The translations under genes and the position numbers were made by a program. This document shows positions 5,625 to 64,000 of a DNA stretch of 64,000 bases, in pieces. Location of the stretch: positions 1 to 64,000 of the forward strand of contig VCJN01000482.1 in NCBI GenBank assembly GCA_006384855.1, read 5' to 3'. This DNA comes from Tetraselmis striata (Eukaryota; Chlorophyta; Chlorodendrophyceae; Chlorodendrales; Chlorodendraceae). Under the pieces are notes generated by a model. The model was not told the DNA's origin, ran no database searches, and was given only the letters and a program-made list of their open reading frames with translations. How positions within the stretch are numbered: position 1 is the stretch's first letter; every line of letters starts with the position of its first letter.

Positions 5625-5724
5625 CTGCCACGAACGGTACCCGGACTTCAAGACTGTTTACTTAAAATAAAAAACAATCTGTCACCATAATAAAAAACAA
5701 TCTGTCACCACACACACACTGGCC

Positions 5725-16830: not shown

Positions 16831-16980
16831 GGTGCTTGGGCACATGTACAAGCGCATGCAAGGAGCTGCGTGGTTCGTCACGCGGTGGGGGTTGCAGAAT
16901 GTGGTGACGGAGGAGGACGGCCCCGAGCGCAAGGCGCAGGTGGACGCGCTCACTAGGGAGGGGAGGACTCAATACCCCGC

Positions 16981-17651
16981 GCGGCGCCAAGGCGCGGCGG
17001 CCGGGGCAGCGCGGCGCCAAGGCGCGGCGGCCGGGGCAGCGCGGCGCCAAGGCGCGGCGGCCGGGGCAGCGCGGCGCCAAGGCGCGGCGGCCGGGGCAGC
17101 GCGGCGCCAAGGCGCGGCGGCCGGGGCAGCGCGGCGCCAAGGCGCGGCGGCCGGGGCAGCGCGGCGCCAAGGCGCGGCGGCCGGGGCAGCGCGGCGCCAA
17201 GGCGCGGCGGCCGGGGCAGCGCGGCGCCAAGGCGCGGCGGCCGGGGCAGCGCGGCGCCAAGGCGCGGCGGCCGGGGCAGCGCGGCGCCAAGGCGCGGCGG
17301 CCGGGGCAGCGCGGCGCCAAGGCGCGGCGGCCGGGGCAGCGCGGCGCCAAGGCGCGGCGGCCGGGGCAGCGCGGCGCCAAGGCGCGGCGGCCGGGGCAGC
17401 GCGGCGCCAAGGCGCGGCGGCCGGGGCAGCGCGGCGCCAAGGCGCGGCGGCCGGGGCAGCGCGGCGCCAAGGCGCGGCGGCCGGGGCAGCGCGGCGCCAA
17501 GGCGCGGCGGCCGGGGCAGCGCGGCGCCAAGGCGCGGCGGCCGGGGCAGCGCGGCGCCAAGGCGCGGCGGCCGGGGCAGCGCGGCGCCAAGGCGCGGCGG
17601 CCGGGGCAGCGCGGCGCCAAGGCGCGGCGGCCGGGGCAGCGCGGCGCCAAG
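16981..17651. repeat. Minisatellite: 22 perfect 30-bp units
   Basis: Unit GCGGCGCCAAGGCGCGGCGG + CCGGGGCAGC, repeated 22 times without a visible change and followed by an 11-base partial unit. Because 30 is divisible by three and the unit lacks stops, several frames stay open throughout. On the plus strand one frame gives a 10-residue repeat R-R-Q-G-A-A-A-G-A-A, continuous with coding-like sequence upstream (V-D-A-L-T-R-E-G-R-T-Q-Y). Perfect identity means very recent amplification or an assembly artefact. Confidence 0.95.
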
Positions 17652-31859: not shown

Positions 31860-33565
31860 TTAGCACTAAGGACTTCCTTTCTACTTCCGCGCTGCCGCTC
31901 TCGTGGTTGGCCAAGCTGTGACTTTCCTCCGTGCTCAACACGCCACCCTGAGCGACGCCGGGGCGTTCTTTTCCGACCCGTCCGGCGTATCCAGCCCGCA
32001 TAGCCTCTACCTTGTTGGGGCGTCCTCGATCCACCAGGCTTTGACCACCCCAACGTTGGAGCTCGATGCTGGCGCCAACGCCTCGGCGCCGATGTGGGCA
32101 GTCGAGCTTCGCGCCGCTCATACCCGTGTCGTTGACGAGTGTGGAGACGCGGTGCTCGAAGATCTAGCGGGGCCGTTGGCCTCTGCCCTAAAGTTGCCCC
32201 CCTCCAAGCGCTCCCACGTTGCCCGTGCCAGTTGTTCGGCCGCCGGGGCTGAGCCGGCGTCTGCAATGCGCTCGGCGGCCGACCTCCAAGCTATCCCGCA
32301 TTTCTCGGACTTCCCCTTGCACTCCATGCGGAAAGTACAGGAAACCCTGAGCCACCGCATTCACACGGTCCGTTTCGCAAAGCTTGCTGCACGTATGCCT
32401 ACAAGCGGCCCTGACAGCAACCGCTTCCGAGGCCGCCTCTTACGCGCTGCGACGGCGCGTTCCTGGTGACTGATCCTCCAAGTGAGGGTCGCCTTGGTGA
32501 AGTCCGTGAGCGTTCCCCTGAGTACTATGATTCCATGTTCTGTGTTGCCGCTTGCCGCCCATTTGGCCGTCCGGCGGCTCCTGTCTTCTCCCTTGGCGAG
32601 CCATGCTCTTGTGCTTCTTGCTCCTTCTCGGTACAAGGTATGCTTGCCCTTTTTGAGGATGCTGGCGTGGAGTTCACTCCTTCAACTTGGGCGGTCGCAT
32701 ACGCTGACCACGTGGCACGTTGCTCTGGTGGCGACTCCAATCACGCCGCAAACGAGTGGGCGGCACATGGCCTTTCCGACATTTGCCACGACGTGAAGTC
32801 CGCGCTGGGTGTGGGTGTCCAGATCCTCACGGACCCGTCGGTGCTTGTTTCTCTCCCGAAGGGCAGCGACGGGCGGCCTGCCGACGTTGGGCTTTTTGGG
32901 TATGGCGGCATCCGCGGAAACACGGTTGCTGTCGATACCACCATTGCCCCTATCCTCGGCGTGTCAACCTCGGATCCAACGACTGCTTTGCGGGCTGCAG
33001 AGCGCCGCAAAATCCAGAAGTATGACGAGGGTGTCCGAAACGCTGCCGGTATGCTTCGCTTTGTTCCTTTCGCCGTTTCCGAGTTTGGCTCGCTGGCCCC
33101 GCACGCCGAGGCTTTCTTGGTGGAGGTCGCGAAAGCTAGCCAAGCACACACTGGCACAAAAATCGGCCAGCTCTTGTCTGCGTGGCGCCGCCGTTTCTCC
33201 TTTTTCTCCTTGCTCATCAACATGGCACATCCAGACAACGTTCTTGGCGGGGTTGCGGCCGCGCGTGCGGCACGTGATGGTGCTACTGCGCCTGCGTCGC
33301 GTCGCTCGTCGGCATGTGTTGCTATGACCCGGGTCATTGGCTGCAAGCGTCCTCGCCGCGCCTAATAGCCTACCCCGGGGCGGGGGTTCCTTAAGTTCCT
33401 GGCAGCTAAGTGACTTCGTGGTTCCCTTGGCTCCTTCTTGGTTCTTGGCTCCCTGTCCTCCTGCTCGACCTTGGTTTCAGGCTTATGTCTCTCTTTTGCT
33501 GGCAACCTTTCATAGTTGCTGCTAGTTCTGTTGTAGTGCGCTTTTGTGAACGCCCTGATGTAATA
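31860..33565 (+). mobile_element. Retroelement C-terminal fragment with restriction-like endonuclease domain
   Basis: Two long plus-strand frames (31903-32469 and 32466-33365). The second has a zinc-binding cluster (P-C-S-C-A-S-C, then D-H-V-A-R-C), then H-A-A-N-E, then R-P-A-D-V, then V-A-V-D-T-T-I and A-A-E-R-R-K-I-Q-K-Y. This C-x-C / H-x3-C finger plus R-P-x-D...D-x-T-hydrophobic...K-x-x-K-Y layout is typical of the restriction-like (PD-(D/E)XK) endonuclease at the C-terminus of some non-LTR retroelements. The reverse transcriptase itself is absent, so this is a 5'-truncated copy, with at least one frame change relative to a single protein. Its 3' 400 bp equals 5725-6135. Confidence 0.55.
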
Positions 33566-35394: not shown

Positions 35395-38123
35395 CTAGGC
35401 CTTCTCCAGCAGGTGGCGTGTCTGCTTGCCCAGCCTCAGCTTGGACCGCATGCGCAGCGAGCCCTCCTCGTGGCAGCTGTGGCGCCAAGTGAGGAAGGGG
35501 TCCATGTTGTACACGTCCCACAGCTCCTCCTCATCCTCCTGCTCTAGAAGCACCTTGACCTTGGCGCACACCAGCTTCCAGCCCTTGTCGCCCACCTCCA
35601 TGACGGCAGGGTCGCGGATGAGGGGCTTGTCGGCCGAAAGCATGCGCGAGAAGTAGCCGCACATCGGCTTCTCGCCATCATCAGGCATGTCCACGATGCG
35701 GGACATGTCGGCCAGGATGGACTCCACCTCCGCCTCGTTGTCGGTCTGCAGCTGCTTCAGCAGCACCAGGCGCACGGTGTTCTCCGCCTCGGTGATGGTG
35801 CCCTCAAAGTACATGCGGTCCATGCGGCACAGCAGCCCCACGCCGCGGCCAAGCACGGTGGCCTGCGCCGCGTTGCGGAGGCCCAGGATGATGGGCAGGT
35901 TCTCTTCCTGGTAGGGGCCGTGCATGCCGCTGTTGTGGTCCATGAAGCGCAGCACCTGTGGCGATGTGTATGAGGGGGGGTCAGCGGCACGCTCTCCCAG
36001 TCCTCCGGCAAGCAGCACGCCAGCCTTCCCATGCCAGCACCAGTTGCGCTGCAACCCCCCAGATTCTAGTATCCACATGTGAATGAGCAGGATATGCCTG
36101 ACTGCCGTAAGCCTCCACCCCACCCCAAACCCCTTTCCCCGTAATGGCGCATAGAGCCTGTACCGGCTACTACAGCAGGCGCCAGTGGCAACGGTGAGCT
36201 GCAAAGCAAAAATAACAAGACGGGGTTGCTGGAGGCTGGCTGTACCTGCGCGCCGCCGATGCCGACGCCGTCGGTGCCGGTGAGCACGGCCTTGGCGATG
36301 CTGTCGTCCTTGATCTTGAAGCCGGCGCTGTAGTAGGTCATCAGGCCGCGCTCGTGCGCCAGGTGCACCAGGTCCACCGCCTCTGCGCGGCCCAGCTGCT
36401 CCAGCACATTCACAGACGGGTATACGTCGCCGGCGCCGTCAAAGGTGACCTTGTCAAAGCCGCCCATCGCGGCCAGGATCACGCCCGTCTTGCCGATCTC
36501 GTACTTGTCGGTGATGACCTTGGGCTGGCCCCCGTTGGCGGCCATCGTCTCAGGGCGGTCGTCGGTGAGAGGCGTGTTGAGAGGGAAGGCGGCACTCAGG
36601 TACTGGCGCGCGCGGTTGCGGCTGGTCTGCGCCGCCATGTGGTGCATGTACTCCAGCATCTGCACCGCGGTCAGGCCCTCCATGACGAGCTTGCACTCCG
36701 CGGCGCCGTGGATGAAGGCGCTGGACAGCGACGCGGCGGTGGTGTGCACCACCTTGAGGAAGTCCACGTTGAAGTTGCCGCTGTCCTTGAGAGGGCGGCC
36801 CACAAACCAGGTGGTTGGCGCGGCGTTGCCCACGTGCGTGCGGACCTTCATGAAGTCCACAAAGCTGCTCACGCGGTAGCTCTCAATCTGGGAGCGGTCC
36901 TCCGCGCTCTTGGGGCGCTCCAGCCACTCCACGTGCACGATGGCGCCCTTCATCCACTCCGTCACCCAGGTGCCGTCCATGCAGTGGCCATCGCCGGGGT
37001 CGGTGAGGCTCATGTATGTCTGCGCGTCCTTGCGGAAGCCGATGGTGCCGTGGAAGCGGTAGTCGGGGTAGCTGGGGATCACGCCATTCGCCACCTTGCG
37101 GGGAAGATAGGACAGGGGCACAAGAGATGATTCGTTCAGGGGTCGTTGGAACAGGATCCCAATTCATGTTGGGCATACAGATAGGTAAGACGACAAGGAG
37201 GGGGAAGGACAGGGAGGAGTTGTCTGTAGATGGAGTAGAGCATGGCTGACATCCTCCCTATGTGGACAAGGGGGGTGATGGATCGGGAGACATCAATGCC
37301 TAGGACGCTGTGGTCTGTCAGCATACAACATGATAGGAGGAAGTCGGACGAGAAGTAGGGATGCACGGCGAAAAAGGGCGGCACTGGTGAATTGGGACAG
37401 CTGTATGAGTGGCTGCTTCGTGGCAAATCAGGAGGTAGACAATGTGTTGAGCTGTAAGAGTGCCAGTGTCGAAATGTGCGCTGTACGGCCCCCCTCTGAA
37501 CCAGGGGGTGGACGAAAGATAAAAGGGGTTGACAGGCGGGGGGTCGACAAGGAGTTATGGCGCTGCGCCCCCACCTGGACGTAGCCGAAGTAGATGACCA
37601 GGTACTCGGCGGGCGTGGGCACGCGCTTAGCATCGCGCAGCAGCGCGTTCAGAGCGACGCTGGGCACGGGCTGCTTGTTGAAGGCCTTGCCCTCGCAGGT
37701 GAGCACGCACTTGCCGGAGTTGGGGAACACGGAGACCTGCACCACGCCCGTCTCGCGCTTGTTCACCTTGCCGACCGTACCGTGCTGCACCTCCGTCAGC
37801 TGCATGAACATCTCGAGGATCTCCGCGCTCTCGTGCGCCGCGTCCAGCTTCTCCGCGACAGTGCGCAGCGTCGAGTAGTGCGACACCATGTAGCGGCTAC
37901 CGACCAGGCGGCTGATCATCTCGTTCACAAACTCCAGCGTCGTGTCGGTGTCGGTCCCGGCGAACATCGGCAGCTCCGTCTGGCTAGCGAACTCGACGCC
38001 GTTGGCGTACTGCTGCTTGACGTGCTTGTTCCACATGCGTGTCACCACATCGCAGAGGTATAGCTGCGTGGCCTGGCGCAGGTCCACACGCGAGATGCGG
38101 TGGGTGGACACGGACTGGACCAT
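35395..38123 (-). CDS. Unrecognised 652-residue protein, paralogue A (three exons)
   Basis: Exons on the minus strand are 38123-37575, 37094-36246 and 35955-35395 (549, 849 and 561 bp), all joined in phase 0, giving 652 aa. Introns are 480 and 290 bp. I do not recognise the family. The protein is soluble-looking, with no signal peptide or membrane segment. About residues 395-470 read like the end of an alpha/beta barrel: L-V-H-L-A-H-E-R-G-L-M, Y-S-A-G-F, then T-G-T-D-G-V-G-I-G-G-A, which resembles phosphate-binding loops of TIM-barrel enzymes; this is inference only. The C-terminal 180 residues are helical and acidic (E-Q-E-D-E-E-E-L-W-D-V-Y). The start is chosen because 5' leaders of A and B align up to this ATG. 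It is arranged head-to-head with paralogue B, starts 11.3 kb apart. Confidence 0.9.
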
Positions 38124-38846
38124 CGAGGCGGGTCTGTTGTTGCTTCCGGGTGGTCGGAGGCTCTCGGCGCCTCTATCGAGCGCGGAAGGTTTGTTTGTTG
38201 TAGCAGTGGGTCGCGGAAGAAAGTACCTGCGTGAGCAGCGGCAGTAACATGGTGTTGCTCAGCGTGCGCCGAGGGAAGGTAGGGACGAGGGGCGGAACGT
38301 TGGATGAAACTACAGGCATGCTGAGGTGCAAGGTGTTAGTAGGCGGGGGATGATCCGCGGGGGAACGTCTCCGAGGCGAAGGCGACGAGCGGGCTAGCGG
38401 GTTCCCTAGCTGACTAGCTGGCGTGCGATCGCGACGATCGGGCGCGATCTCTGTAAGCGCGATGACACCAAGAGCGATCTCCGGGAGCGACCAGATGGCC
38501 CGACCAACCGGTACTACCTCTGGAATGCGTATTACGCCGCCTACGACGACAGCGGGCGGGGGTCATTTCATTCCGCCGTCATGTGTTCGAAAAGGAAGCT
38601 TGTCTCACCTGGGCTGCTGACAGGGACGTCGCGGAGGACGGCGGTGACGGGGCAAGGATTGTCGCGGAGGACGGCGGGAGTGATGGGTTTGGTGTGGGCG
38701 CGCGTCCAGCGGCCTACTCGTCTCGACACTCGGATACCAGCGATACCCGTGGTTAATACTTTTTGGTTATAGGGAGAGCGTCAAGAGAATGCACGCAAAG
38801 TACTGGGGAAGGAAAAAGCCTACATTTAAGCAGAACCCGTGGTCGC
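38124..38846. other. Upstream region of paralogue A
   Basis: The first 45-60 bp upstream of the ATG share GCGCCGAGAGCCTCCGACCA and CCCGGAAGC with the leader of paralogue B. Beyond that the two flanks differ. CGATCGCGACGATCGG words occur near 38425. No TATA box is evident; a GC-rich initiator-type promoter is likely. Confidence 0.4.
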
Positions 38847-38864
38847 TAGCGACTATGTATGCGG

Positions 38865-39070
38865 TGATCCAACAGTGTTGGAAGTTTTGTCACTGGCCTT
38901 TAATTAGTCTTGCAGAATGCTTCGGCAATTTGCTTGATGACTATAACGGAGCGTCGCCTACCCAGGGCTTTTCGTAACTGGATTGCTGCCGAAACGGCCG
39001 TAGTAGAGACGCTGCAAGGGTTTCACTGGTGCGGTGGTCCCAGTCCTGTCCCGGGGTGGAAAAAACAGAA
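38865..39070. repeat. Dispersed repeat, inverted copy at 650-860
   Basis: Opposite-strand partner of the block at 650-860, with the same chain of words from GTGATCCAACAGTGTTGGAA to CCAGTCCTGTCCCGGG. A TAGCGACTA motif lies just outside its left end (38847-38855). Confidence 0.7.
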
Positions 39071-39134
39071 ACTCTATATACCTTGTACCCTACCCTTGTA
39101 CCCTTGTGCCACTACCCGTACAGGGTACTGGTAA

Positions 39135-39385
39135 AAGTAAAGTTCGCCCCGGGACATCGGCCGAAGCCGCCCCAGCACTTGACCCCTTGCGCCAACTGCA
39201 GTCGTAGGTCTGGCATAACCCGTAGACCATTGCCCCATTTGAACCCCGAAGGGCTAATGCATCAACCGGGGAAACCCAGGACACGCCGGGACGATATTGC
39301 CGAAAATACATCGGCCAGGAATCGAACCCGGTAGCGCTGCCTCTCGCGTACGTGACGACCGCTCAACCGAGCGGACAAGGGATGT
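39135..39385 (-). mobile_element. SINE-like element with tRNA-derived head
   Basis: On the minus strand, about 39385-39300 reads as a damaged tRNA: a D-arm-like hairpin (CCGCTC-GGTT-GAGCGG), no proper anticodon arm, then a T-arm CCGGG-TTCGATT-CCTGG containing a perfect RNA polymerase III B box (GGTTCGATTCC). Five base pairs of an acceptor-like stem (ACATC / GATGT) can form. The following 80 bp (39215-39135) is the inverted relative of 6270-6345. A tRNA-derived SINE fits; a functional tRNA does not. Confidence 0.55.
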
Positions 39386-39403
39386 ACCTGGACAAGGGTA
39401 CTG

Positions 39404-39565
39404 GTGTGAGTTAATACAAGAAGGGCATAATGTCCGAATGTCATAACGTCCTGCTTACTACTTTATTACTCGCCTAATGTCCGAACGACACAACGTGAAC
39501 TATCGTCACGTTGGTTCGCCACATCCGCGAAAGATACAAGAAGGGCAGTAACAAATCCACCTACC
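39404..39565. repeat. Inverted fragments of the 5.5-kb repeat end
   Basis: GATACAAGAAGGGCAGTAAC and AAATCCACCTAC (39533-39565) are the reverse complement of GTAGGTGGATTTGTTRC... at 5484-5505 and 5562-5580. ACTGGTGTGAGTTAATACAA (39402-39421) resembles the 3450-3465 end. GGGCATAATGTCCGAA recurs within the interval. Confidence 0.55.
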
Positions 39566-39934
39566 GGTACTGCTAAAAGCAGGACAAGGGTACCTGTACT
39601 GTCGTCGGCGCGGCACTCCGATATCGTCATCGCCCTCATCGCGCGACAAGGTTTGGATTTGGTTCGTTTCGTCGCTATTATTCGGTTTCATCGCCTCACC
39701 AGTCCCTACTATCTATAGAGATTAGCGACTACCTGTAGCTGCCGCCAGTACACAATTGCGCCGGTACACAATTGCGCTGCCAGTCGTCGACAATGGCTCA
39801 ATTGCCAGTACACAATTGCTGCACACAAGCAGCTGTAAACCCTAAAGGCGACCGAGGATAAGCGACCAGCAGTATTAAGTAATCCTTGCCCGTAGTCATC
39901 GCTGTAAGTAGTACAGGGTAGTCACTATACAAGT

Positions 39935-42900
39935 TATGTTTCAAGTCTGGCTGCCAGAAACGTCGCGCAGGCATGCATCACGGACCATAAGAGCCGGAAT
40001 TGGCAGAAAGGTGTAGTATTAAGTGAAAGCGTGGAGGGAGAACGGAGTCAGGGGGGGGCCGTGTGTAACACATCGGAACTTGAAGATTGCAGGCTCATAT
40101 ATATGTATGTTACGGCTGCTTTTATGTCTACTCGTGTTGCACACAAAAGGGCATAGCGACAGGTGAACTAGTACCCCGTGCCACTTGGCAGCAACGGTAG
40201 CCGGAAAAGCGGCTAGGAAAGGAGGAAACCCCATATCCTACTTTAGATCAATTCAATTTGAGCATGGTTTTGCGAGTGACGAGCGAACGGAGAGAGGGGT
40301 AATAAAGTTGACAAGTAAGGGGTACGTAGCGCCATGTCACGACGAAGGGGGCACCAGGAAGGCCGCCGCTGCGGATAATTGTTGAACTTGGAAGTGGCGA
40401 AGGGCGCGATGTGACCGAAGAAGAACCACACGCCAAGTGAAGGGAGGACGTTATGGTCGATGTAGTCTAGAACGCGACGTCGGAGTTCGTGGCCCAGCCG
40501 CCCTGATGGCGAATGTTGAACAAGCCGACAAGGGAACTCCGATGGCGTTAGCAAGGGAGAGTGCACCCTTGCGAAGGCTGTGAGAGGTCCAAGAATATAA
40601 GTGATGGCAGTAGCAGGGGGATCCATGACAATAAGACGAACGGCCGTAGAGAGCCAGTCCGACATGGTAGCGGCAGTCCATGATTTGGACAACTCGCTTG
40701 GGGTGACCTCCCAAAAGTTAGTCTCGTCGGCCAAGGCAGCATGGGCCAGGGGCAGACCGGACGTTGTCGATGAAGGGGTACATGATGACTCACACGGGCG
40801 ACGCGGGGGTGCTCCGACTTGTGAAGGAGCAACACACGTACGTCGTTGGGGGCGCGCCGTCCGGCACGGCCCTTCTCACGGTACACACGTGGGGTGCTGA
40901 TGTTGTAGGAGTCCACATGCACGTCCCGCACTCGGCCGGACACGCGAGCAAGTCCCATGGCAAAGAACATGAAGTTGACAACCGGGACCACGAGGGCCGG
41001 ACGTCGTACTTGTACTCGGGGCGGGGGCGGGGGGGGGGGGGGTAGGTGGTTGGGGGGGGGGGGGGGGGGGGAGACACGATCAATTCGGCATGCTCGACGA
41101 AAGCGTAAGCGACATCAGCATGCAACGGGATTCGTAAGGGCGCAGCCTCCATATGCGGCGTTGAGGTGCAACCTGTCCTTAGCGATGGGGTTGATGTTAT
41201 GTACTAGCTCGAAGAACGTGTTGAATGATTGCTGACAGGGAGGGCTGCGACGACTTTGCCTCAATGTGCCCCCGATCACCAATCCAAGCGACGTACCGGA
41301 CGACAATGGCAGTGGTCGCCTCCACCACGGGTTGATGTTCTCGGACTTGTGGCAGAACTCCGCAAATTGAGACAGCTTGCCGGCGTAGCTCTTGAGCGTT
41401 TGGGCGGTGAGGGAACTTGAGAGTAGGTCGAGGGCCCGCTGCCCCAACTCGTCCGAGCCGAACGCCTCATGTAGATGGGACCATAGTGAAGCAACCCATG
41501 GGGCGACAGTTTCGGGCTCGTCAATCACGCAAGTACGACGCTTGGCCGAGGGAATAACATGGGGCCGGTTCATTTCAGCAAAGTAATCAGCGACGGCGGT
41601 TATTTAGATTGCCCGCGGTTGGCTGGCAATTGTTGGACGGGTTAATATGGACACCAATACGGGTTTGCGGGGGAAAAGTCGTTTAGGTAGGAGGGCCGCG
41701 CTGATGCGCGACCGTTGCGCTCGTAGCGCATGTCTCGCGCGTAACGTACACTCGCGATCTAATCGTAACACGTAGGTAGTGTAACGACCCACGGACGCAA
41801 TGATGAGATAGTGCGGGAGGCGGTGTGTTCAGTCGCCATGTGTAGGTGTGCGTATAATTGAGCCGCACTGCTGGGCTGTGGCTGTAACAAGCGCCGCGCT
41901 GAAGAAGGTCTACATAGAGTCTGTACGGTGGGGGGTCCAGTCCGGAAACGGGGCGCTCATTAACCCGCCGTTGAGCTGCCAAAGGTGATCGTGCGTAGGC
42001 GTGGTGCGGCGATTGCCGAAGGTGATCTCGCAAAATGCCGGCAGCTCCGACGGAGGCGCTCCGCAGCGTCGCTCGTACTCACCTTCGCGGCCACGCCCTC
42101 GACCGCCGCCACGTCCACGTCCACGCCCGCGTCCTGCGAGCGATGCCGCCACCCGAGCAGTGGCAATAGCTTTCGCGCTGCTGGCGACAGTCGCCGCGAA
42201 GATATGACGCTCATAGTCTTCATCATGTCTCCGAATATCGCAAGGCGCAAATGCTCGGCCGGGGGCTAAAAATGCCGAGCCCGCAGTACGTCCAACACGC
42301 CTTGATCACCGTGCACGCGCTTGATCTCGTTAAGCCTGCTCCGCAGGAAGGCTAGACGAAAGCGAAACGCCTTGTCGATGGCCTCGGCGTGATTCCGGGC
42401 GAGCGCGAGGTAGGTGTTGAAGTCGTGATTGGCAACATGGACGTAAGGTAGCCACTCATGAAGGGCCACGAAACGAGTAGCTGTGTGGGCCCCAAAACAT
42501 GTCATGCAATTGTACTCCTCATGGGCCGGTAAACGCCGGTCATCCTGCTTGAGGTTGTAGTCGTTCGTCAGTTTGGTACGCAAGGGGAAAACACAGATAC
42601 TAGGCTGATCGGTCGAACGTCCTCGTAACTAGACTTTGCTCATTGTAGCAGCTCTAGCATCGCGAGTTCGTCGTCCTCGTCACACGCGGATTTTGTTCCG
42701 AAACGGGCGCTCAAGGCTAGCTCTAGCATGTCGGGGCGCACTGCGGCTCCGTCCAACGCTGCATATGTTGGCTATCCCGCGACGCGTGGCCCGGGTCCAA
42801 AGCCATGTGCTCCGTCTCCATCAACATCACGCACTCGAGCCGTCGTCAATTGGGCCAACGACGATGTGAGCTCGAGCAGCAATGTAGAGTGGGTGCACCG
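39935..42900 (-). mobile_element. Tyrosine-recombinase element, copy 2, decayed
   Basis: Homologous along its length to 9760-12700, in the same orientation: upstream protein region (about 42580-41910), recombinase region (about 41580-40250) and 3' non-coding end (about 40250-39935). It is broken in many places (roughly ten or more) and carries G runs around 41030-41070. The divergence from copy 1 indicates an older insertion. Age cannot be dated from one pair. Confidence 0.7.
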
Positions 42901-43249
42901 GCCGGCCAACCCGGTAGCCGGGCCTCGCGGTTTCGGTATCCGCCTCCTCTTACTCGCCCATCTCCGGCTGGCGACGGGATGGGGTGGGGTGCGGTGGACC
43001 TCCATCTCCGAAGTGGACATGGTGCACAAAGTCGGCGGAGATGTCGATTGAGACAATGGTCCTTATCCACTTCCAACAAGCGTGGGCGGAGGCACAACGC
43101 TGCGTGAATGAGCGGGTGGTGGTCCTGATGGTGGAGGTCGATGATCATGTGGTGTTGGATAGGGCGTTCAAGTGAAAGTACCCGCTGCCGCGGTTGTTGC
43201 TTAGGGCCCCGGGCCAAGGCGCGAGCCGGCGGCGGCGGCAAGCCTTAAT

Positions 43250-43890
43250 TGGCGTGGCGCTTCCGCGCATTCGCCGAGCGGCGCATGCTGACCGAGCTCG
43301 TGCGCTCATGGGATGACGCCTGCACCGAGGCGCTTTATGCCGGACATGTCCACAAGCGTCTGGCGGACGACGACCTCTTTGCGGCGCTGCTCGTGTGCGC
43401 CGCGTGGGCGCCGCGGACACCGTGATGGCGTTGCTAGTGGAGGACGGATAGTAGCTCTCCTGAGCGGCGGGCCGGCTATCATCTTCTAAGGGTAGTATGG
43501 GCGACCTATCCGATTCTGCTATCCTCGCCCAGCTGCGCGACAAGCACCCGTCCCATGGCCATCCATCCCATACGCCGCGAATGATGTTTTGGTCGACGAG
43601 GCCGCCCTGACTGTGGATACGCGTGTGCGCCGTACCAACGGCTAAAGCAGCACGCGGCGGCGGGGGCCTCATGCATGTGTAACGATTAGTATCTCCGCTG
43701 CTTAGTGGACGAATACGCCTCGGCGTCGGGGCCTACGGCGGTCCGCGCCACGTCGGAGGTCGCCTTAATGTACCTCCACGGTCGTCCGCCCGGTTGGTTC
43801 AACCGGCTCTTCGCCTCTTCTAGGATTGTGGCCTCTATCAATAAGCTAGCCGCAGGCGAGGGAGGGCCCCCACGAACTAGTAACCCGCAC
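43250..43890 (+). mobile_element. Retroelement fragment, region at and before the reverse transcriptase start
   Basis: Coding-like pieces on the plus strand read A-D-D-D-L-F-A-A-L-L (about 43370), then I-L-A-Q-L-R-D-K-H-P-S (about 43520-43555), then a stretch ending W-F-N-R-L-F-A-S-S-R-I-V (about 43795-43840). The order and motifs resemble the N-terminal part of the same retroelement class as 31860-33565, where an L-x-x-L-H-P motif and an L-hydrophobic-S-x-L stretch precede the palm domain. The fragment is broken and incomplete; assignment is tentative. Confidence 0.35.
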
Positions 43891-43955
43891 CGCTCAGGAG
43901 CACATACATGTAGCCAGAAAGCGTTTGGGAAAGGAGGAAACCCCATTAGCGACTA
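43880..43955. repeat. Third, partial copy of the tyrosine-recombinase element end
   Basis: GGGAAAGGAGGAAACCCCAT here (43927-43946) matches the 3' ends of the two larger copies (about 10035-10050 and 40215-40232). A TAGCGACTA motif follows immediately (43947-43955). Confidence 0.5.
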
Positions 43956-44288
43956 ACTGCCCGTTGTTTAGGTCATAACGGCCGTCGTTCGTAGGGAGAC
44001 GGTGAAATGGTTTCAGTGGTGTTGCCAATCATGTCACGGGAGGGCGGAAAACCAAAAACGTACAATACTAGTACCGTGAAAACAGTACATGCACACTACC
44101 TACTGTTCACAATTCCATAGCAGTAACGTACAATACTCCGGTATAACATCTGCAGCGCGCGCAAATGAATTTCTTTTCCGTCCCCGCGCGTTTCTGTTCC
44201 CCTCCGCCCCCCGCACACCCGCCCGGGCCGGGACGTCACGGGCAAGTAGCATCAGTGAAACCCTGCTTTAACCCGTATAAATGTTAAT

Positions 44289-44535
44289 ATCCATGTGGAC
44301 ACGCACGCGGCCCATGTGTACATAGAGCGGTCCATGTGGACATGGAGCCTCCATTGACCCATGTCCACATGGTCCGTACTATGTACACATGGGGTTAGCT
44401 AAAAACGGTCCATGTGCACACGGGTCGTTGGCTGACCCATGTACACATGGACTGCCCTTGACAAATGTCCATGTACACACGGATCGGCCCATGTACACAT
44501 GAAGCGCGGCAATTGGACCATTCACACATGGATCC
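44289..44535. repeat. Array of imperfect CCATGTGTACACATGG palindromes
   Basis: About ten variants of CCATGTGBACACATGG (for example CCATGTGGACATGG, CCATGTCCACATGG, CCCATGTACACATGGA, CCATGTGCACACGGG) occur in 250 bp, spaced 15-35 bp apart with CGGNCC/CGGTCC words between. The unit is self-complementary, so the region reads alike on both strands and could form many small hairpins. No coding sense. Confidence 0.8.
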
Positions 44536-44697
44536 ATGCTATCCAGCTCATGTGTGATACGGTGAGTTTTCGTCCGTATTTAAAGGCAAGATTAATTCGA
44601 TTTCAATTAAGTTCAAACTAAGCAGCTGATGCAATTTACTTGAAATTATAGTGTAATTAAAGAGAGACTTCGGTTATATTTTATTTTATTCTAGAAT

Positions 44698-47600
44698 TTA
44701 GTTCATTACACGGGCTGGGGTGGCAGCTCGTTGAGCGCTAGTGCCAGCACCATGGTCCTCAATGTTCTGACAGCAGTTGTTAGCAGGGCGACACCTAGAG
44801 TTGCATTTCCTACCGATTTTGCGGCAACTGCAAATGTTGGTGGCACATGGCCCTTTACATGTGCATTTGATCATTCGCCCTTGGCCCCAAATAGTGACAC
44901 AGATCTTACACCTTCTCTGAGGGAGATCTTCTTCCGTGATCCTTGGTCGCTCCACTTCTCTACCACACCCGCCAAGCCCACCCGCGCAGGTGCAATGTCG
45001 CGCAACTGATCCAGATCTTGCTGCCCATATGTGGCCTTGATAACACCCACGTCCACAGACGCTCTGTAAGAATTGCATTCTGTGACCAGCAAAACATGGG
45101 GTTTGGGGAGGGCATTTGAGAAAGATGTGTGCGTCATCACTGGGACACATCAAGCATTGCATGCAACTGGCATCAGTGTACAACAAGAGGAGCATAACAT
45201 AACTCACCTCAATCACCACGCATGTCAAGAATCTAGGGTCCACCTTGCCGCGGTCCTCCTTTGCCAACGGCACTCTGACCACATCACCCACCACTGGTGA
45301 TGGGTCGGCCTTGGCAGCGACCCGGGCACGGATCACCCTAGCCAGCTTAGCCTGTGCAACACTGCACTGAGCCCTGATTGCGCGCCGCCCGGGACTGTTG
45401 GCCAGTTGGGAGGGAGATACTGGACTACCATCACCAACGGCCGCGGGTGCTTGCATGAGGACTTGTGGAGTAGCCTCCGCCGCTGCAGCCGGAAGCACCG
45501 GTGGCTCCTCAGGCGACCTTCGCCCCTTACGGCCCACTGACTCACAGGACGAGGCAGCTGCATTGGTGGCTGCACTTGTGCTTTCAAGAGAGCGAGGGAC
45601 CATATCCACTGTATCAGCCGCCATGCAATCATCGCTGCGGTGGCCATCAGCCGTGCCACCTACGTGCGAGACACATGAGTGTCACAGTCACACCCATGCC
45701 ATCACGGGCATGCTGACAAGATTGGCAGCGACAACATGTTATCTGTACATATGACAAGTTAGAAGGCTTTGCAGCGCACACACTGATGATCCTTGACAAG
45801 GCCGGCTGTAGGGATAAGCATCCCAATCTTGCAATGCCCACCATCGCACCAAGCCTTGCATGGGGCGCAATATGTCTCCGGGTCCCATGGCAAGTTGGGT
45901 CTGGGACTTAGGGGCATAGTGTCTGCTGGTCCTCGTTGCGAGAGAGCATCTGCTCATCGTGTTGCGCGTTCACACTAATCTCAGGGGTGATGGGCAGATG
46001 TTTTTGTGTGCACGGAGGAGTGGGGAGCAGGGAAATATGAGTTAGCACTTGTGTGTTCATGATATATGCTGTGGAATACGAGCTAGCACTGCTACATAAT
46101 TATAGTATTCAAAATATAAATATATAAAACCCAACATATATAATATCAATAGACGTTAACAAGAGTAGTTATAATTACTTCTGTTGCTTGTTATATTAGT
46201 TAGTTAAAGAGTTTAGTATAATCACATTAATATAACCATTACTTAGCACTTCATGCTATGGCTCAGTACATGCGCAGCATGGAAGGCCAACAATATTGCA
46301 ACAGCTTTGCGGGCACTCACCGATTGGGAGGGGCGCTGGCGTTCTGAAGGCATCCATGTCTTCCTCCTCCTGTGGCTGCTGCTCTTGTCGCGCCTGCTCC
46401 TCTGCATGCTGCTCCTCTTCGTCCTCCTTGGCTTGCTTCTCCGGCGCCAACACATCTTCACGGAGGTTCTCAATCATGTCATCCTCCTCCAAACCTAAGG
46501 CCATGTTCAGATCTGCCTCTGTGACGTGGGAATCCATGAGCTCTGCCGAGATAGGAAGGTTGCTGATACCCACGCGAGGGGGTTGTCCAGGGAGGGCGTT
46601 GTATGGTACCTACAACATGCATTAAGTGTTCCGCTTAGTCATCAGCAAGTAAAAATCCAGGATTATGTGGGGAAGAGGGGGGTAACCTGCTGAATGGCAG
46701 TGTGGAATGTTGTGTTGTGGGCTCACATCCCCCGAGATGATGCCAAAGGCCAATTACGGGACTTGTTTTCATCACACCAATGTGCGATGTACTCCTCAAT
46801 AATGGTGCGGTTGAATCTTTCAATGCTACTGGGGCTATGCCTAGCTCTCCTTGTTACAATTTGGCAGCCAGGCCAGAGCTTCTTGGTGCTTTCAATCACC
46901 TGCAATCACAACACATACACACACACACATCTCAGACTTGCACTTGTACGCAAGCTCAGCAGCATGCTATTTATTACACAACGGCCCACACACCTCCTTC
47001 ACCTCCTCCTCCGAGAGACCGATTCTCCTGCTCGGTTGCTTGTCGGCAACACGGAGAGCGCTCTACCGTTGTCAGCTTGAAGGATGGCAGGCGGCCCAAG
47101 GAGGGAGAAGAGTAAGAACATTTTCCCTGCTATGGTATCCTTCTGCAAGGATGTACGCGTGGTTATAAGATACGTAAATAAAGAAAGGGGGAAGGGGGAA
47201 GCAAGGGGGTTGGATAGGAGCGCAAATATCAAACTAGCCCGCTACTGTGGCATACAAACCTCCTTGTTGGGGATCGGAGTGCAGAATATAAGCAGCACTT
47301 GATGCCGTGATGTAGGTGAGCAGGAAGCAGTAGCCCTTGTATTCTCATGATTGCTTCAGATGGACATTTATGTCCTCCTTCTGGATGAGCATGTCGGAGT
47401 CTCCACAGGTGAGGACATCGAAGCGGCGCTTTGTAGCCCAGGCCCGCGCTCTTTCCTGCTCGACCATCCAACAAGAAGAGCACTTTGCACCTCAGTACAT
47501 GGTAGAGGCGCGGCGCCAGTTTATTTCGGCTCGGCGCTGCAGTACAGGCGGCGCCAGCAAGTGCCCCATTTACATGCCGTGCCTTAGAGTCGGCGCCGGA

Positions 47601-48000
47601 GCTACAGGCACAAACAACGCGGCAAAAGATTTGACTGTCGAGAACTGTACTATGTAGAGGATTAGCGGGAACTTCGTCGGGCGGTGCGCGATCGGGTCGG
47701 CTAAAACGTCAGACTATAAAGCGTAAAAACACGCGAACTCCATACGCGAGGCCTGTGACCCATATCGGGGGCAACCTGCGAACAAGGCTTGTCGGCGGGC
47801 CTCACCTCTCTCGTCGAAGGTACGAAGCGTTTGCATGGCTTCGTTGTACTCTGCCTCTGTCAGCAACGTCTGTTTATCTCGACATTGCGCCATATACTCA
47901 CGATGTCTCTTGTTGAAGGCGTCGCGATGCGCCATTGCGCCTGCACCACGGATGGTGCCTAAACCTCCGGTCGATCTTCGGCCGGCCCATCCTCCGGTGC
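44698..48000 (-). mobile_element. Integrase-bearing retroelement-like fossil
   Basis: On the minus strand, in coding order: a Glu/Gln/Arg-rich leader (about 47935-47714), integrase core pieces (about 47200-46700) with I-L-Q-A-D-N-G and W-P-G-C-Q-I-V...R-H-S-P-S-S-I-E-R-F-N, an acidic low-complexity stretch (46573-46256), and a C-terminal region (45624-44698) with G-D-V-V-R-V-P-L, D-R-G-K, and a cysteine array C-T-C-K...C-S-C...C. This is the layout of LTR-type (Gypsy-like) or Ginger-type integrases with a C-terminal zinc-binding tail. No reverse transcriptase or long terminal repeats are recognised. It is broken, with several breaks, and looks old. Confidence 0.55.
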
Positions 48001-49409
48001 GGCAGCGCCTGCGGTAGCATCAGCATTGCCTGATGCCATAGTACCGACCAGGGCCGGCCAGAGCCGACCAGGGGCGGTCTTGGAAAGGGGGATTGCCACA
48101 GCTGCGATCGTTGCGTTATTGCGGGGACGAGTGAGCACGGCCTGTCCGCAGGGGGTTTTATTAGTGACTGTACCTGGCGCCCGATCGCAGCTCCCGCGCC
48201 GGCACGGCACTCGTCCGCAAAATGGCGCGGGCGCCGCAGCGCCAACCAGCACCTGCCCGTACGAAGGCCGAGTTGACTTCATCTTAACTCAGCAATATTT
48301 TCTTAATCGTGCGAACTAGGCCACCCCACCGCCACCCCGCCACGAGCTCGTATAGCTAGCAGTACAGGCGGTACGAGACCCACCGAGAGGGCTGATGTTT
48401 GAGTTCTCGGGTCTAGGCTGTGCTGTAACACCCCCCGTGCACTGAGCTGTATGGCACATGGACCGGACGCGGGTCGAAGTGGGCTCGCGGGTGGGCGGGC
48501 ACCATCGGGTCGCCCAGCAGAGACGTGCGAGAGCGCCTTGCAGTACTTTCAGGAAGTTCTCGTAATGTCGCGCATACTGTACCGTATTACCAAGGGTAGT
48601 CGCTAATACGCCTGGCATTACCCCTGGTATTACGAACTATATATATATATATAAATAAAAGTGATTTATGTACATCCGACGCAGCATTTTCAACCCCACA
48701 ATCTTACTGACTTGCGGGTGAAAACCGCCGGGACGACCACCTGTAGACCGAAGTTGAGAGCCAAATGTGCCCCTCAAAGGTAAAGCACGGGTGTCGCGTC
48801 GACCTCGTGCTCAAGCTGATTGGTGCTGGATCGTTGCATGGCCCGTACGATTACTAACTTTACTTGGTATCTCCATGCCCGTACGGGTAGGTAGGTCCAT
48901 CGATGTCGACCTACAGGTATCTGTACCAGGGGTAACCCTGCCTGTACTGCCGCGGGCATCGGATCTCGGACACCAAACAGACCTGGCTGCCAAGCCGCTT
49001 CCATCTTCCGCCCTCCTCACCTTGGCTCTTTCAGCAACCCAGGTGAGACTAGCGCCCCCCACTGTATCGATCGAATAATGTTTCCCAGCGGGCTAGATAC
49101 TGCACCCGCGCGCCGGTCTCGGCGGTAGCGGCGGCGCATATATGCCAGCGGTGCCACCTTTGCCGCCTATGCAGCGGGTTTGATCTTGTCGCCATCTCCG
49201 CGGGGCCGATCTATATTGCCCGGAGCCCTTTTACCTCGAACCCCCGCCCACCCCCCCGCGCCGCGCCCCCAACTTGAGACCGTTTATAATTCTTCATCAT
49301 TCCTAGCTTCCCGTCACTGCCGATGAGATAAGTTTGCTGCGTGTGTTCCTCGGCCAACAGCGGCGCCGAGAGCCTCCGACCACCCGGAAGCGACGTAAGA
49401 CCCACCGCG
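48001..49409. other. Upstream region of paralogue B; fossil debris and an AT microsatellite
   Basis: No gene recognised. (TA)n lies at 48638-48652. The leader 49365-49409 matches that of paralogue A. GGTAGGTAGGT and GTACGGGTAG words occur near 48875-48895. No clear TATA box; the promoter is unassigned. Confidence 0.4.
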
Positions 49410-52180
49410 ATGGTTCAGTCCGTGACCACCCACCGCATCTCGCGCGTGGACCTGCGCCAGGCCACGCAGCTCTACCTTGGGGATGTTGTGACTCGCATGT
49501 GGAACAAGCACGTTAAACACCAGTACTCCCGCGGCATCGAGTTCGCTAGCCAGACGGAGCTGCCGATGTTCGCCGGGACCGACACCGAGACGACACTGGA
49601 GTTTGTGAACGAGATGATCAGCCGCCTGGCCGGTAGCCGCTACCTGGAGTGGCACTACTCGACGTTGCGCGGCGCGGCCGAGAAGCTCGACAATGCTCAC
49701 GAGAGCCCGGAGATCCTGGACGTGTTCATGCAGCTGGCGGATGTTCAGCACAGCGCGGTCGGCAAGGTGAACAAGCGCGAGGCGGGCCTGGCGCAGGTCG
49801 CCGTGTTCCCCACCACCGGCAAGTGCGTGCTCACCTGCGAGGGCGAGGAGTTCGAGGGGCAGCCAGTGCCCAGCGTCGCGCTCAACGGGCTGCTGCGCAA
49901 GATCAAGCGCGTGCCCACGCCCGCCGAATATCTGGCCATCTACTTTGGCTACGTGCAGGTGTGGGCGCTGAGCCCCCCCCCCCCCCCCCGGGGCTTTCTC
50001 TCGTGAACAACCCTATCATCACCCCCATCGCTCTCCAGGTTTCATCCCCGCTCAGCAGACTCTGCCAATGAACTTGTCGATACTCCACACACGGGAACAC
50101 AAACAGCCCTTCACTGCTCTCGCTGCCGCTGCGCCTGCAAGCAGCACTCGTCCTATCTGCACCCCACCAGTGCCATCCCCTTTCCAGTCTGTCGGCCGCC
50201 CCTGCACAGCTTCACCCACTTTGGTAACTGTCAGGGTGCTCTCGCGCCCATGGCAAACCCTTTGCCTGCCTGGCCGCTGGCCCGTGACCCTTACTGTCTC
50301 TCCCTTCCTCTGTCATGACTGGAGGAACAGCACCCTACTCACCCCCCTCCAATGTACTCCACAATGCCATCTCCCATGGTCTATTCACACCTCATTGCAA
50401 GCCCGTTCTGGACCTCCACTCAACTCCCCGCCGTGTGCTGCTGCCCCACAAGGTGGTCAATGGCGTGATCCCCAGCTACCCCGACTACCGCTTCCACGGC
50501 ACCATCGGCTTCCGCAAGGACGCGCAGACGTACATGAGCCTCACCGACCCCGGCGATGGCCACTGCATGGATGGCACCTGGGTGACGGAGTGGATGAAGG
50601 GCGCCATCGTGCATGTGGAGTGGCTGGAGCGCCCCAAGAGCGCGGAGGACCGCTCCCAGATTGAGAGCTACCGCGTGAGCAGCTTTGTGGACTTCATGAA
50701 GGTCCGCACGCACGTGGGCAACGCCGCGCCAACCACCTGGTTTGTGGGCCGCCCTCTCAAGGACAGCGGCAACTTCAACGTGGACTTCCTCAAGGTGGTG
50801 CACACCACCGCCGCGTCGCTGTCCAGCGCCTTCATCCACGGCGCCGCGGAGTGCAAGCTCGTCATGGAGGGCCTGACCGCGGTGCAGATGCTGGAGTACA
50901 TGCACCACATGGCGGCGCAGACCAGCCGCAACCGCGCGCGCCAGTACCTGAGTGCCGCCTTCCCGCTCAACACGCCTCTCACCGACGACCGCCCTGAGAC
51001 GATGGCCGCCAACGGGGGCCAGCCCAAGATCATCACCGACAAGTACGAGATCGGCAAGACGGGCGTGATCCTGGCCGCGATGGGCGGCTTTGACAAGGTC
51101 ACCTTTGACGGCGCCGGCGACGTGTACCCGTCTGTGAATGTGCTGGAGCAGCTGGGCCGCGCAGAGGCGGTGGACCTGGTGCACCTGGCGCACGAGCGCG
51201 GCCTGATGACCTACTACAGCGCCGGCTTCAAGATCAAGGACGACAGCATCGCCAAGGCCGTGCTCACCGGCACCGACGGCGTCGGCATCGGCGGCGCGCA
51301 GGTACAGCCAGCCTCCAGCAACCCTGTCTCCGTATTTCCCTTGCAGCTCACCGTTGCCACTGGCGCCTGCTGTAGTGACCGGTACAGGCTCTATGCGCCA
51401 TGGTTTTCTTTGTACGGGGAAAGGGTTTTGGGGTGGGGGTGGAGGCTTGACAGATGGCATTGGCATACAGCTGTCAGGCATATCGTGCTCATTCACATGT
51501 GGATACTACAATCTGGGGAGTTGCAGCGCAACTGGTGCTGGCATGGGAAGGCTGGCGTGCTGCTTGCCGGAGGACTGGGAGAGCGTGCCGCTGACCCCCC
51601 CTCATACACATCGCCACAGGTGCTGCGCTTCATGGACCACAACAGCGGCATGCACGGCCCCTACCAGGAAGAGAACCTGCCCATCATCCTGGGCCTCCGC
51701 AACGCGGCGCAGGCCACCGTGCTTGGCCGCGGCGTGGGGCTGCTGTGCCGCATGGACCGCATGTACTTTGAGGGCACCATCACCGAGGCGGAGAACACCG
51801 TGCGCCTGGTGCTGCTGAAGCAGCTGCAGACCGACAACGAGGCAGAGGTGGAGTCCATCCTGGCCGACATGTCCCGCATCGTGGACATGCCTGATGATGG
51901 CGAGAAGCCGATGTGCGGCTACTTCTCGCGCATGCTTTCGGCCGACAAGCCCCTCATCCGCGACCCTGCCGTCATGGAGGTGGGCGACAAGGGCTGGAAG
52001 CTGCTGTGCGCCAAAGTAAAGGCCCTGTTGGATGAGGAGGACGAGGAAGAGCTGTGGGACGTGTACAACATGGACCCCTTCCTCACTTGGCGCCACAGCT
52101 GCCACGAGGAGGGCTCGCTGCGCATGCGGTCCAAGCTGAGGCTGGGCAAGCAGACGCGCCACCTGCTGGAGAAGGCCTAG
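49410..52180 (+). CDS. Unrecognised 652-residue protein, paralogue B (three exons)
   Basis: Exons 49410-49958, 50453-51301 and 51620-52180, with exactly the same lengths and phases as paralogue A (549, 849 and 561 bp; 652 aa). Introns are 494 and 318 bp. Compared with A, exon 1 differs at about 35 of 183 residues, but exon 2 at about 2 of 283 and exon 3 at about 4 of 186; intron 2 also aligns closely while intron 1 does not. Intron 1 here has a C17 run (49973-49989) starting 15 bases after the donor, absent from A. Both copies are open throughout, so both may be active. An in-frame upstream ATG exists at 49341, but the shared leader supports 49410. Family unknown. Confidence 0.9.
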
Positions 52181-54706: not shown

Positions 54707-54750
<44 letters not shown>

Positions 54751-61152: not shown

Positions 61153-64000
61153 ATGGCACCAGCGATGACTGCGGCCGCGTCGGCGGCGGCAACGGGCGTG
61201 GCGCCACTCCGCTTTGTCGGCGGCCGTCGCCACGCGGCGCGCTCTCCCGCTCGCCTGGCCGTCCGCGCCACCGCTGCGCCCGAGTCGCCCACCGACGCCC
61301 CCGCCTCCACAGCGGGCCTTAACAAGTTCAGCTCCCGCATCACGCAGCCAAAGTCGCAGGGCGCATCGCAGGCGATGCTGTACGCGACGGGCCTGACGGA
61401 GGCGGACATGAACAAGCCGCAGGTGAGTGGCCGGGAGTCGAGGACCTGGAGGGGGGGGTGTGTGTGTGGGGGGGGGGGGGGGCTTTCGTATCGTACCCGA
61501 GAAGCGGGCACACACAGCCATGCCGCATCCAATTCCGGGCTCGAGGTGACATGGGACGCCAGGGCTGGGCGCGCCTCCCCCCTCTCCCCCTCGGCTTTGA
61601 CTCTGGTGTGCGCTGGCTGGCTGGTGTCGTCGCGCAGATTGGCATCTCCTCCGTGTGGTACGAGGGCAACCCCTGCAACATGCACCTCATGGACCTCGCG
61701 CTGGTGCGTGGACCCCCCCTTTCCCCCCTCCCCCTTTTTCGCCTCCCCACCTGTAAAAATATGAATACTTACCAGGTCGTACCCATGTTTAACAACTCAG
61801 AACTACTGAGATCTGCAGCCAGAGCAGTGGACATCTCCAGTATGTATAGATTCCCTCATCAAAATAAACCAAAAAGCCCCGGCTAGAGCCACGGCTCGCA
61901 CTTAAATCCACCTGATCCTTACACCAGCTCACCATGCCCGCGCGCCACCGGCACCACCGCCAATGCAATCCCCGCAGGACGTGAAGATGGGCGTGCAGGA
62001 TGCGGGCATGGTGGCGTACCGCTTCAACACCATTGGCGTCTCGGACGGCATCTCCATGGGCACCGACGGCATGAGCTACTCGCTGCAGTCGCGCGAGATC
62101 ATCGCGGACAGCATCGAGACCGTGCGCCCCCTTCCCCAGTTGGATGACCCCATCAGCGCCCTCCTCCAAGCGATGCCCCCCGTGCGAGGGATGGCGTGAG
62201 CACCGCCCCCTCCCCGTCCCCCCCCTCCGTACATAACCGCAAACGGGGCGCGCTGCAGGTGATGGGCGCCCAGTGGTACGACGGCAACATCTCGCTGCCG
62301 GGGTGCGACAAGAACATGCCCGGCACGCTCATCGCCATGGCGCGCCTCAACCGCCCCGCAATCATGATCTACGGCGGGACCATCAAGCCCGGCGTCGCCA
62401 CCGCCAACGGCGAGCCGCTCGACATTGTCTCGGCGTTCCAGAGCTTTGGTACCCCCCCTCTTTTAACCCAATCAACCCAACCCATTAGGCCTAACCTGAA
62501 GGAAGTTTACTGATCACAGAAGTCACAAGTTGCTGTCTCCAGCATCTGTGTGTAGGAGCTTCATTGGAATCTTTGCTGGTTCACTATATGTCACTCTGCG
62601 GCGCCCCTCTCCGCGCCCCCCCTCTACCCCTCATGGGCGACCCGCCCCAGCATCCCAACCTGTCAGACCTGCGGTTGCGCATCTGAGCTCCCCCACGCCT
62701 CCCCTGGTGGCCGCAGGTGCCTACAGCGCGGGGCTGATCGACGAGAAGGAGCGCTTTGACATTGTTCGTAACTCGTGCCCTGGCGCGGGCGCCTGCGGCG
62801 GCATGTACACCGCCAACACCATGGCCTCCGCCATTGAGGTACGCCCCGCCTCGACCCGCATGCACGCGGTAGCCGCTAATCTGCAGGGTACAGTACAACC
62901 ATAGACATCAACCGCGGGCCGGCTTACAGAACCATTTATTGCGGATCGCGGGTCTACTGAATACATATTTGTTTTGCACCATCCGGTCCGAACACCCGTG
63001 CCATTTTCGTGGTATTCCCCCTTTCCCTGACACATCCCAAGATCCACCGAGTCTTTTTCTGTTCACGGCAATGTAAGGAGGGGGTCACACACAACCAGAT
63101 TCACACAGCAAACCCAAAGTGCGGCGCTGATGACACAGTGCGATGGCCATCACCGGTGCTGTAGTATCCCTGAGCATGTATGTATGCCTGTTGTTGTATG
63201 TATGCCTGAACAGCCCGGCACAGCCATGTTACGGTAACCTCCTTGTCGCACAAAGGGCGCCGTGTGATGACAGTAGCCAACATGCGCATAGCATCAGCAG
63301 ACCCTGGCATCCATTGACCCCCTCTTTCCCCCCGGCGGTCCCTCCTTTGCCCCGTTGCGACCCCTTCTCCGCGGGCCCAGGCGATGGGCATGACGTTGCC
63401 GTACTCCTCCTCCATCCCGGCGGAGGACCCCCTGAAGCGCGACGAGTGCCGTATGGCGGGCGCGGCGCTGCTCAACCTCATGAAGATGGACCTCAAGCCG
63501 CGCGACATCATGGTGCCCCCCCCCCCCCCCCCCCAATGACTGGATTTTATCTTGAGACAGCGCCAGCATTGCACTTCTGTGCATAACAGCGTGGCGGCGC
63601 TGCCTGGACGGGTGGCAAATGAGCGACTGAGTGGGTGATCGTTCTGCTTTGCCCCCCCCCCCTTTTCTCCTCCCCCCGTTGCATCAGACGCGCGCCGCGT
63701 TTGAGAACGCGATGGTGCTCATCATGGCCACCGGCGGCTCCACCAACGCGGTGCTGCACCTGCTGGCTATGGCCAGGGCCTGCAACGTGCCGCTCAGCAT
63801 CGACGACTTCCAGAAGGTGCCCCCCCCCCCCCCCTTCTCTTTTCTTTCGCTGACAGTGTCTCAGGCCATGCCTTCTTCAACCTCACCCCCATTCTCACCC
63901 CCCTCCCCACACCGCCACAGGTCTCCGACCGTGTGCCTTTCATCGCGGACCTGAAGCCCTCCGGCAAGTACGTCATGGAGGATCTGCACAAGGTGAGGCT
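61153..64000 (+). CDS. ilvD: Dihydroxy-acid dehydratase, plastid precursor (partial, eight exons seen)
   Basis: Catalyses dehydration of 2,3-dihydroxy-isovalerate and 2,3-dihydroxy-3-methylvalerate in valine and isoleucine synthesis in the plastid. Exons are 61153-61422, 61638-61703, 61978-62121, 62259-62448, 62717-62838, 63381-63512, 63688-63816 and 63921-63992, then a donor; the gene continues past the window. The 375 codons seen are roughly 60% of a plant-type precursor. Residues 1-45 are an Ala/Arg/Ser transit peptide. The family core then begins [14 protein letters not shown], with the Fe-S cluster cysteines in [16 protein letters not shown] and [11 protein letters not shown], and later [11 protein letters not shown] and M-A-T-G-G-S-T-N. 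The D-K pair of the second motif is expected to serve Mg binding. Introns 2, 4, 6 and 7 have C runs just after the donor, and intron 1 has a G15 run. Confidence 0.96.

Follow-up and report, generated by a model that had tools for sequence, protein, structure and literature searches.

Two related genes, referred to here as A and B, form an inverted pair within a 64-kb stretch of the genome of the green alga Tetraselmis striata (contig VCJN01000482.1, positions 1 to 64,000; hereafter the window). Gene A is encoded on the minus strand (38123-35395) and gene B on the plus strand (49410-52180), so that the two lie head-to-head with approximately 11.3 kb from start codon to start codon, in line with the 11 kb given in a preliminary description of the locus. 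That description had also reported identical exon lengths and phases, and the gene models bear this out. Exons of 549, 849 and 561 bp, the last including the stop codon, are interrupted at phase 0 by GT-AG introns in both copies (480 and 290 bp in A; 494 and 318 bp in B), and each intact reading frame encodes 652 amino acids. Comparison of the window with itself resolves the pair into a back block (35395-37106 against 52180-50441, 96.1% identity) and a front block (37565-38174 against 49968-49359, 87.3% identity), with no match in the interval that separates them. No third copy was found by tblastn at E up to 1, a search that covers the window and says nothing about the rest of the genome, and the window contains no N. 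Coordinates of the genes, and of the features discussed below, are collected in Table 1.

Table 1. Components of genes A and B and segments of their alignment, in window coordinates (HMM, hidden Markov model)
Feature	Position	Strand	Partner in A	Description
A exon 1	37575-38123	-		183 codons; 71/549 bases differ from B
A intron 1	37095-37574	-		similarity to B within shuffle range
A exon 2	36246-37094	-		283 codons; near-identical to B, 8/849 bases differ
A intron 2	35956-36245	-		alignable to B, middle diverged
A exon 3 and stop codon	35395-35955	-		gene model
B weak residual homology	48909-49152	+	38767-38516	
B conserved 5' leader	49362-49409	+	~38171-38124	adjoins ATG upstream; 6 differences/48 columns
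B exon 1	49410-49958	+		diverged from A
B intron 1	49959-50452	+		similarity to A within shuffle range
B exon 2	50453-51301	+		gene model
B intron 2	51302-51619	+		gene model, alignment
B exon 3 and stop codon	51620-52180	+		gene model
Tract T1	50459-51324	+	37088-36223	6 differences/866 columns (HMM)
Intron 2 island	51325-51519	+	36222-36056	21 events/168 columns: 18 substitutions, 3 indels
Tract T2	51520-52003	+	36055-35572	1 difference/484; crosses intron 2/exon 3 border (HMM)
Exon 3 island	52004-52048	+	35571-35527	12 differences/45 bp (HMM)
Tract T3	52049-52180	+	35526-35395	1 difference/132; ends at stop codon (HMM)

Two speeds of divergence within one gene pair

The two proteins differ at 35 of 183 residues in exon 1, 2 of 283 in exon 2 and 4 of 186 in exon 3, exactly the numbers that had been estimated by eye. 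Synonymous divergence (dS), for which uniformity across the exons had been named as an argument against conversion, is likewise uneven, with NG86 values of 0.250, 0.031 and 0.083 for exons 1, 2 and 3, respectively; the corresponding nonsynonymous values (dN) are 0.112, 0.003 and 0.009, giving dN/dS ratios of approximately 0.45 in exon 1 and 0.1 in exons 2 and 3. When silent differences are counted over degenerate codons with the same residue in both copies, they affect 22/142 codons in exon 1, 5/266 in exon 2 and 8/168 in exon 3 (exon 1 versus exon 2, Fisher p = 1.2e-7). The contrast between exon 1 and the three near-identical tracts described below is stronger still (22/142 versus 7/422, Fisher p = 5.3e-9), although it is flattered by the choice of these tracts with the HMM. 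Placed without knowledge of the exon borders, the best single change point in silent differences falls at codon 182-183, exon 1 being 183 codons long, with a log-likelihood gain of 12.4 that none of 2000 shuffles equals. In the spliced coding sequences, the longest stretch of unbroken identity measures 401 bp; it spans the junction of exons 2 and 3 and is reached in 0/10000 shuffles.

Codon usage is strongly biased and equally so throughout, with a GC content at third codon positions (GC3) of 0.90-0.94 in every exon of both copies. Because both GC3 and the silent saturation expected under shared codon usage (0.38-0.41) are similar in all exons, codon bias cannot produce the silent step. In exon 1, the proportion of synonymous differences (pS) of 0.21 amounts to about half of the value of 0.40 that redrawing codons from the genes' own biased usage would give, and it is thus no contradiction that exon 1 aligns while the adjoining intron 1 does not. 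Two further processes were considered for exon 1. Positive selection is not claimed, the overall dN/dS being approximately 0.45 and the segment of codons 121-150, in which 12.5 replacement differences stand beside 0.5 silent ones, having been picked post hoc. Older conversion patches within this exon are suggestive at most: 357/10000 shuffles contain an identical run as long as the observed maximum of 52 bp, the variance test is reached in 2445/10000, and the silent-run test gives p = 0.14.

Non-coding DNA shows the same division, as the preliminary description had proposed for both introns and for the end of similarity at the stop codon. Compared with 200 shuffles for each segment, intron 2 aligns over its full length (274/288 aligned bases identical; score 472 against a shuffle maximum of 39). 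The intron 1 score of 48 is above the shuffle mean yet within the shuffle range (mean 35.0, s.d. 5.2, maximum 56), as is the 3' flank score of 40 (mean 27.4, s.d. 3.6, maximum 44). The step predicted at the stop codon is present, with a single difference in the 132 columns of T3 leading up to it and 121 events in the next 224 columns, a rate of 0.54. Upstream of the genes, the 5' flank retains weak similarity (score 62 against a maximum of 44) that had been overlooked. Within it, both copies carry a donor-like site, CAG/GTGAGAC, with its GT at 49043 in B and 38608 in A, which by eye suggests an intron in the untranslated leader; the upstream edge of the conserved 5' leader is a possible acceptor of such an intron, again as a by-eye prediction.

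A functional RNA was rejected as the cause of intron 2 conservation, as there is no Rfam match across the window at gathering thresholds and no excess folding of the B intron (z = 0.65). Poly-C runs of 17 bases in intron 1 of B and of 18 bases just downstream of the gene have no counterpart at those places in A. Across the 64 kb, 32 poly-C or poly-G runs of at least 12 bases occur, the longest being 30 bases (54707-54736).

Three near-identical tracts and two islands

A three-state HMM applied to the A/B alignment, with state difference rates of 0.6%, 14% and 51%, divides the back half of the genes into three near-identical tracts, which together carry 8 differences in 1482 columns, separated by two diverged islands that the preliminary description had missed. 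This low-divergence region begins 6 bp into exon 2 and ends at the stop codon. In intron 2, every one of the 21 events falls inside the island and the 123 end columns are free of differences, including the last 99 bp of the intron; island and ends differ at p = 9e-6 (21/168 versus 0/121), in a test that used 121 of the 123 end columns and a split chosen after the HMM. Divergence of this island is 12.5%, versus 51% for intron 1.

The island in exon 3 holds 12 of that exon's 14 differences, a clustering reached in 0/20000 shuffles. Its silent divergence (6/11) exceeds the exon 1 level (p = 0.005), a comparison in which the island was itself selected for divergence, and 4% of the 45-bp windows in exon 1 likewise hold at least 12 differences. 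It partly overlaps an acidic, GAG-rich stretch, and local mutability may contribute to it.

Probable gene conversion and competing explanations

From the silent step, the tracts and islands, the alignable intron 2, and the unalignable intron 1 and 3' flank, we infer a non-reciprocal transfer of DNA between A and B, with the following mechanism and order of events. The pair is probably the product of an old inverted duplication followed by gene conversion that was patchy or repeated and was bounded by the loss of homology. After a head-to-head duplication, unselected DNA (intron 1 and both flanks) would have decayed to near saturation, and one copy would later have been overwritten by DNA of the other through the homology surviving in exon 2, intron 2 and exon 3. 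Where homology had been lost, at intron 1 and beyond the stop codon, the converted region would have reached its outer limits. The two islands would retain older differences, implying either several separate events, at least one of them older, or a single event with patchy mismatch repair. That the intron 2 island is far less diverged than intron 1 could reflect an older layer of conversion beneath the recent one, which we favour, or patchy repair.

Several observations agree with this scheme. The drop in silent divergence between the paralogues is abrupt and local, its edge being resolved to codons 179-248; the homogenized stretch takes in the non-coding DNA of intron 2; and the flanking DNA is old and diverged, unlike that of a young duplication. 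Edges at the start of exon 2 and at the stop codon are as expected if homology limits conversion in an old pair. The single tract from the exon 2 acceptor to the stop codon that had been proposed is correct in its outer edges, and conversion remains the best-supported cause, but the region comprises three tracts instead of one; continuity is not required of interlocus gene conversion.

Other results weigh against the conversion scheme. The islands within the converted region demand an extra assumption, and the one in intron 2 is not saturated as intron 1 is. The sharp step claimed at the intron 1/exon 2 border has its best point there, but it is poorly resolved: positions no more than 2 log-likelihood units below the optimum extend, with gaps, over codons 179-248, and codons 184-237 show an intermediate level (silent differences 3/48; p = 0.14 versus exon 1 and p = 0.042 versus codons 238-466). 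Converted pairs in Caenorhabditis elegans are reported to favour the same orientation and short distances of 1-8 kb (PMC3966223), whereas A and B are inverted and approximately 11 kb apart. Finally, the donor could lie elsewhere in the genome.

This last point leads to an alternative to which we give an outside chance, that a third paralogue elsewhere donated sequence to one or both of A and B, in a family-wide exchange instead of a direct one. Nothing in the data fixes the donor, but two nearby copies are the simplest partners, and A and B are the only ones that tblastn recovers in the window. A recent duplication of the whole gene, after which one copy acquired its 5' region, exon 1 and intron 1 from a diverged relative, would also yield a diverged front and a near-identical back, and the exon 3 island could derive from the same relative. 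A similar block of this kind should nevertheless extend beyond the stop codon and break off at random, yet it ends at that codon. The edges of a recent duplication should be unrelated to gene structure, and the observed match of the edges to the gene would be a coincidence. The persistence of weak, old homology upstream and an intron 2 island that is not recent also speak against this sequence of events, which we regard as very unlikely.

We give slightly less credence to an assembly artefact, in which two alleles or loci were partially collapsed or misjoined. Near-identical inverted segments of approximately 1.7 kb can confuse assembly, as might the poly-C runs of B, but intron 1 and the 3' flanks are unrelated between the copies, the tracts carry differences of their own, both frames are intact and the window is free of N. 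Least credible of all is purifying selection alone, under which exons 2 and 3 would be constrained at the protein, codon and intron levels while exon 1 was relaxed. The low dN/dS of exons 2 and 3 and the strong codon bias are what this explanation would call upon. Plain protein constraint is ruled out by the step at silent sites, which occurs despite equal codon bias across the exons; intron 2 is kept without excess folding in the B copy or an Rfam match in the window at gathering thresholds, and identity crosses an intron/exon border. On the silent sites, the equal GC3 and the retained intron 2, both purifying selection and codon bias were rejected as sole cause, in agreement with the initial argument that selection alone does not suffice.

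Gene conversion of this kind has precedents, of which the sources are cited here from partial text. In C. elegans, the collagen paralogues col-12 and col-13 have open reading frames that are 99.5% alike, intron included, between very dissimilar flanks, from which an old duplication with gene conversion was inferred (PMC3966223). The near-identical stretch of A and B likewise includes an intron and adjoins very dissimilar flanks, but the collagen genes are in tandem, 1.8 kb apart and homogenized over the open reading frame, whereas A and B are inverted, with exon 1 not homogenized and an interrupted tract. Closer in orientation are the inverted hsp16-48 modules and the adjacent inverted hsp70 pair of the same species, for which conversion between inverted neighbours is also described, although the hsp16-48 modules are different genes just 416 bp apart (PMC3966223). 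Conversion in C. elegans is given there as commoner at short distance (1-8 kb) and, per one survey, between copies of like orientation, so that the arrangement of A and B, inverted and 11 kb apart, is not the commonest setting. For the stress-inducible Hsp70 genes of mammals, the title of one paper has purifying selection and conversion jointly keeping copies alike (PMC5865164); unlike these, exon 1 of A and B escapes, leaving a two-speed gene. In the green alga Chloromonas, conversion was raised to explain the clustering of rbcS paralogues by species, a suggestion made, in the part of the source available, from a tree only, whereas the edges of the A/B tracts are visible in the sequence (PMC7853309). 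Experimental tracts, as excerpted in PMC3924818, measure 287-296 bp in hamster; for yeast, values of approximately 500 bp (as minimum lengths) and of mostly 200-300 bp are given. Against these, T2 is at the top of the range, T3 below it and T1 (866 bp) longer, and T1 could represent more than one conversion event.

The process is thus already documented in other organisms, and A and B are a further example. In the literature, searched by topic and not by sequence, we recognized no published report of the pair among the papers listed, and we make no claim that it is unpublished. Under the conversion scheme, A and B would be a clean natural case in which conversion, together with the loss of intron homology, can split a gene into shared and copy-specific parts. 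The pair-average dS of 0.10 would misdate the duplication, the separate values being 0.25 for exon 1 and 0.03 for exon 2. A more far-reaching and doubtful extension is that the exon 2-3 module of this strongly codon-biased protein family is kept uniform by conversion recurring in two or more time layers, while exon 1 escapes and becomes a copy-specific N-terminal module, with the decayed intron 1 acting as a recombination firewall. In that case, the decay of an intron would determine which module of the protein is free to diverge between duplicates.

The encoded proteins and neighbouring features

Searches for the identity of the proteins returned no Pfam family at E up to 10 (protein A whole, B exon by exon) and no PDB sequence at E up to 10 (protein A), and the best NCBIfam and PHROGs matches of the B exons (E = 0.052 and 0.9) are at chance level. 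Pattern matches to B exon 2 were confirmed as relatives in 0/51 cases among prokaryote contigs and 0/11 among viral contigs. Part of exon 2 was suspected by eye to resemble TIM-barrel enzymes, for which Pfam gave no support, and a two-sequence AlphaFold model was unusable (mean pLDDT 34.1). The A and B exons score highest among the candidate coding segments of the window for a codon usage that was itself taken from these two genes, a partly circular measure; high expression of the two genes would be a guess from their codon usage.

One of two diverged direct copies of an element (9843-12629 and 40021-42886, approximately 76% identity) sits between genes A and B. A 515-codon open frame in one copy (10146-11693, minus strand) matches the phage-integrase SAM-like domain (PF02899, E = 7.5e-6), and the element is probably a tyrosine-recombinase transposable element. 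Two repeat pairs of 91-92% identity, one direct (5713-6123 and 33145-33563) and one inverted (685-855 and 38862-39032), are perhaps remnants of mobile elements, and a perfect 30-bp tandem repeat array of approximately 22 units occupies 16979-17651. Pieces of other genes are also present. A quinone oxidoreductase-like piece at 26193-26579 matches PDB sequences (best E = 3.5e-16) and, at E up to 0.01, no Pfam family. A dihydroxy-acid dehydratase gene is represented by two pieces at 61975-62447 (PF00920, E = 1.4e-17) and, together with the GT-AG introns of A and B, suggests a photosynthetic eukaryote, probably a green alga; one of the pieces, 67 residues long, matches 14 PDB sequences, 8 of which are labelled chloroplastic, the best match not being among these.

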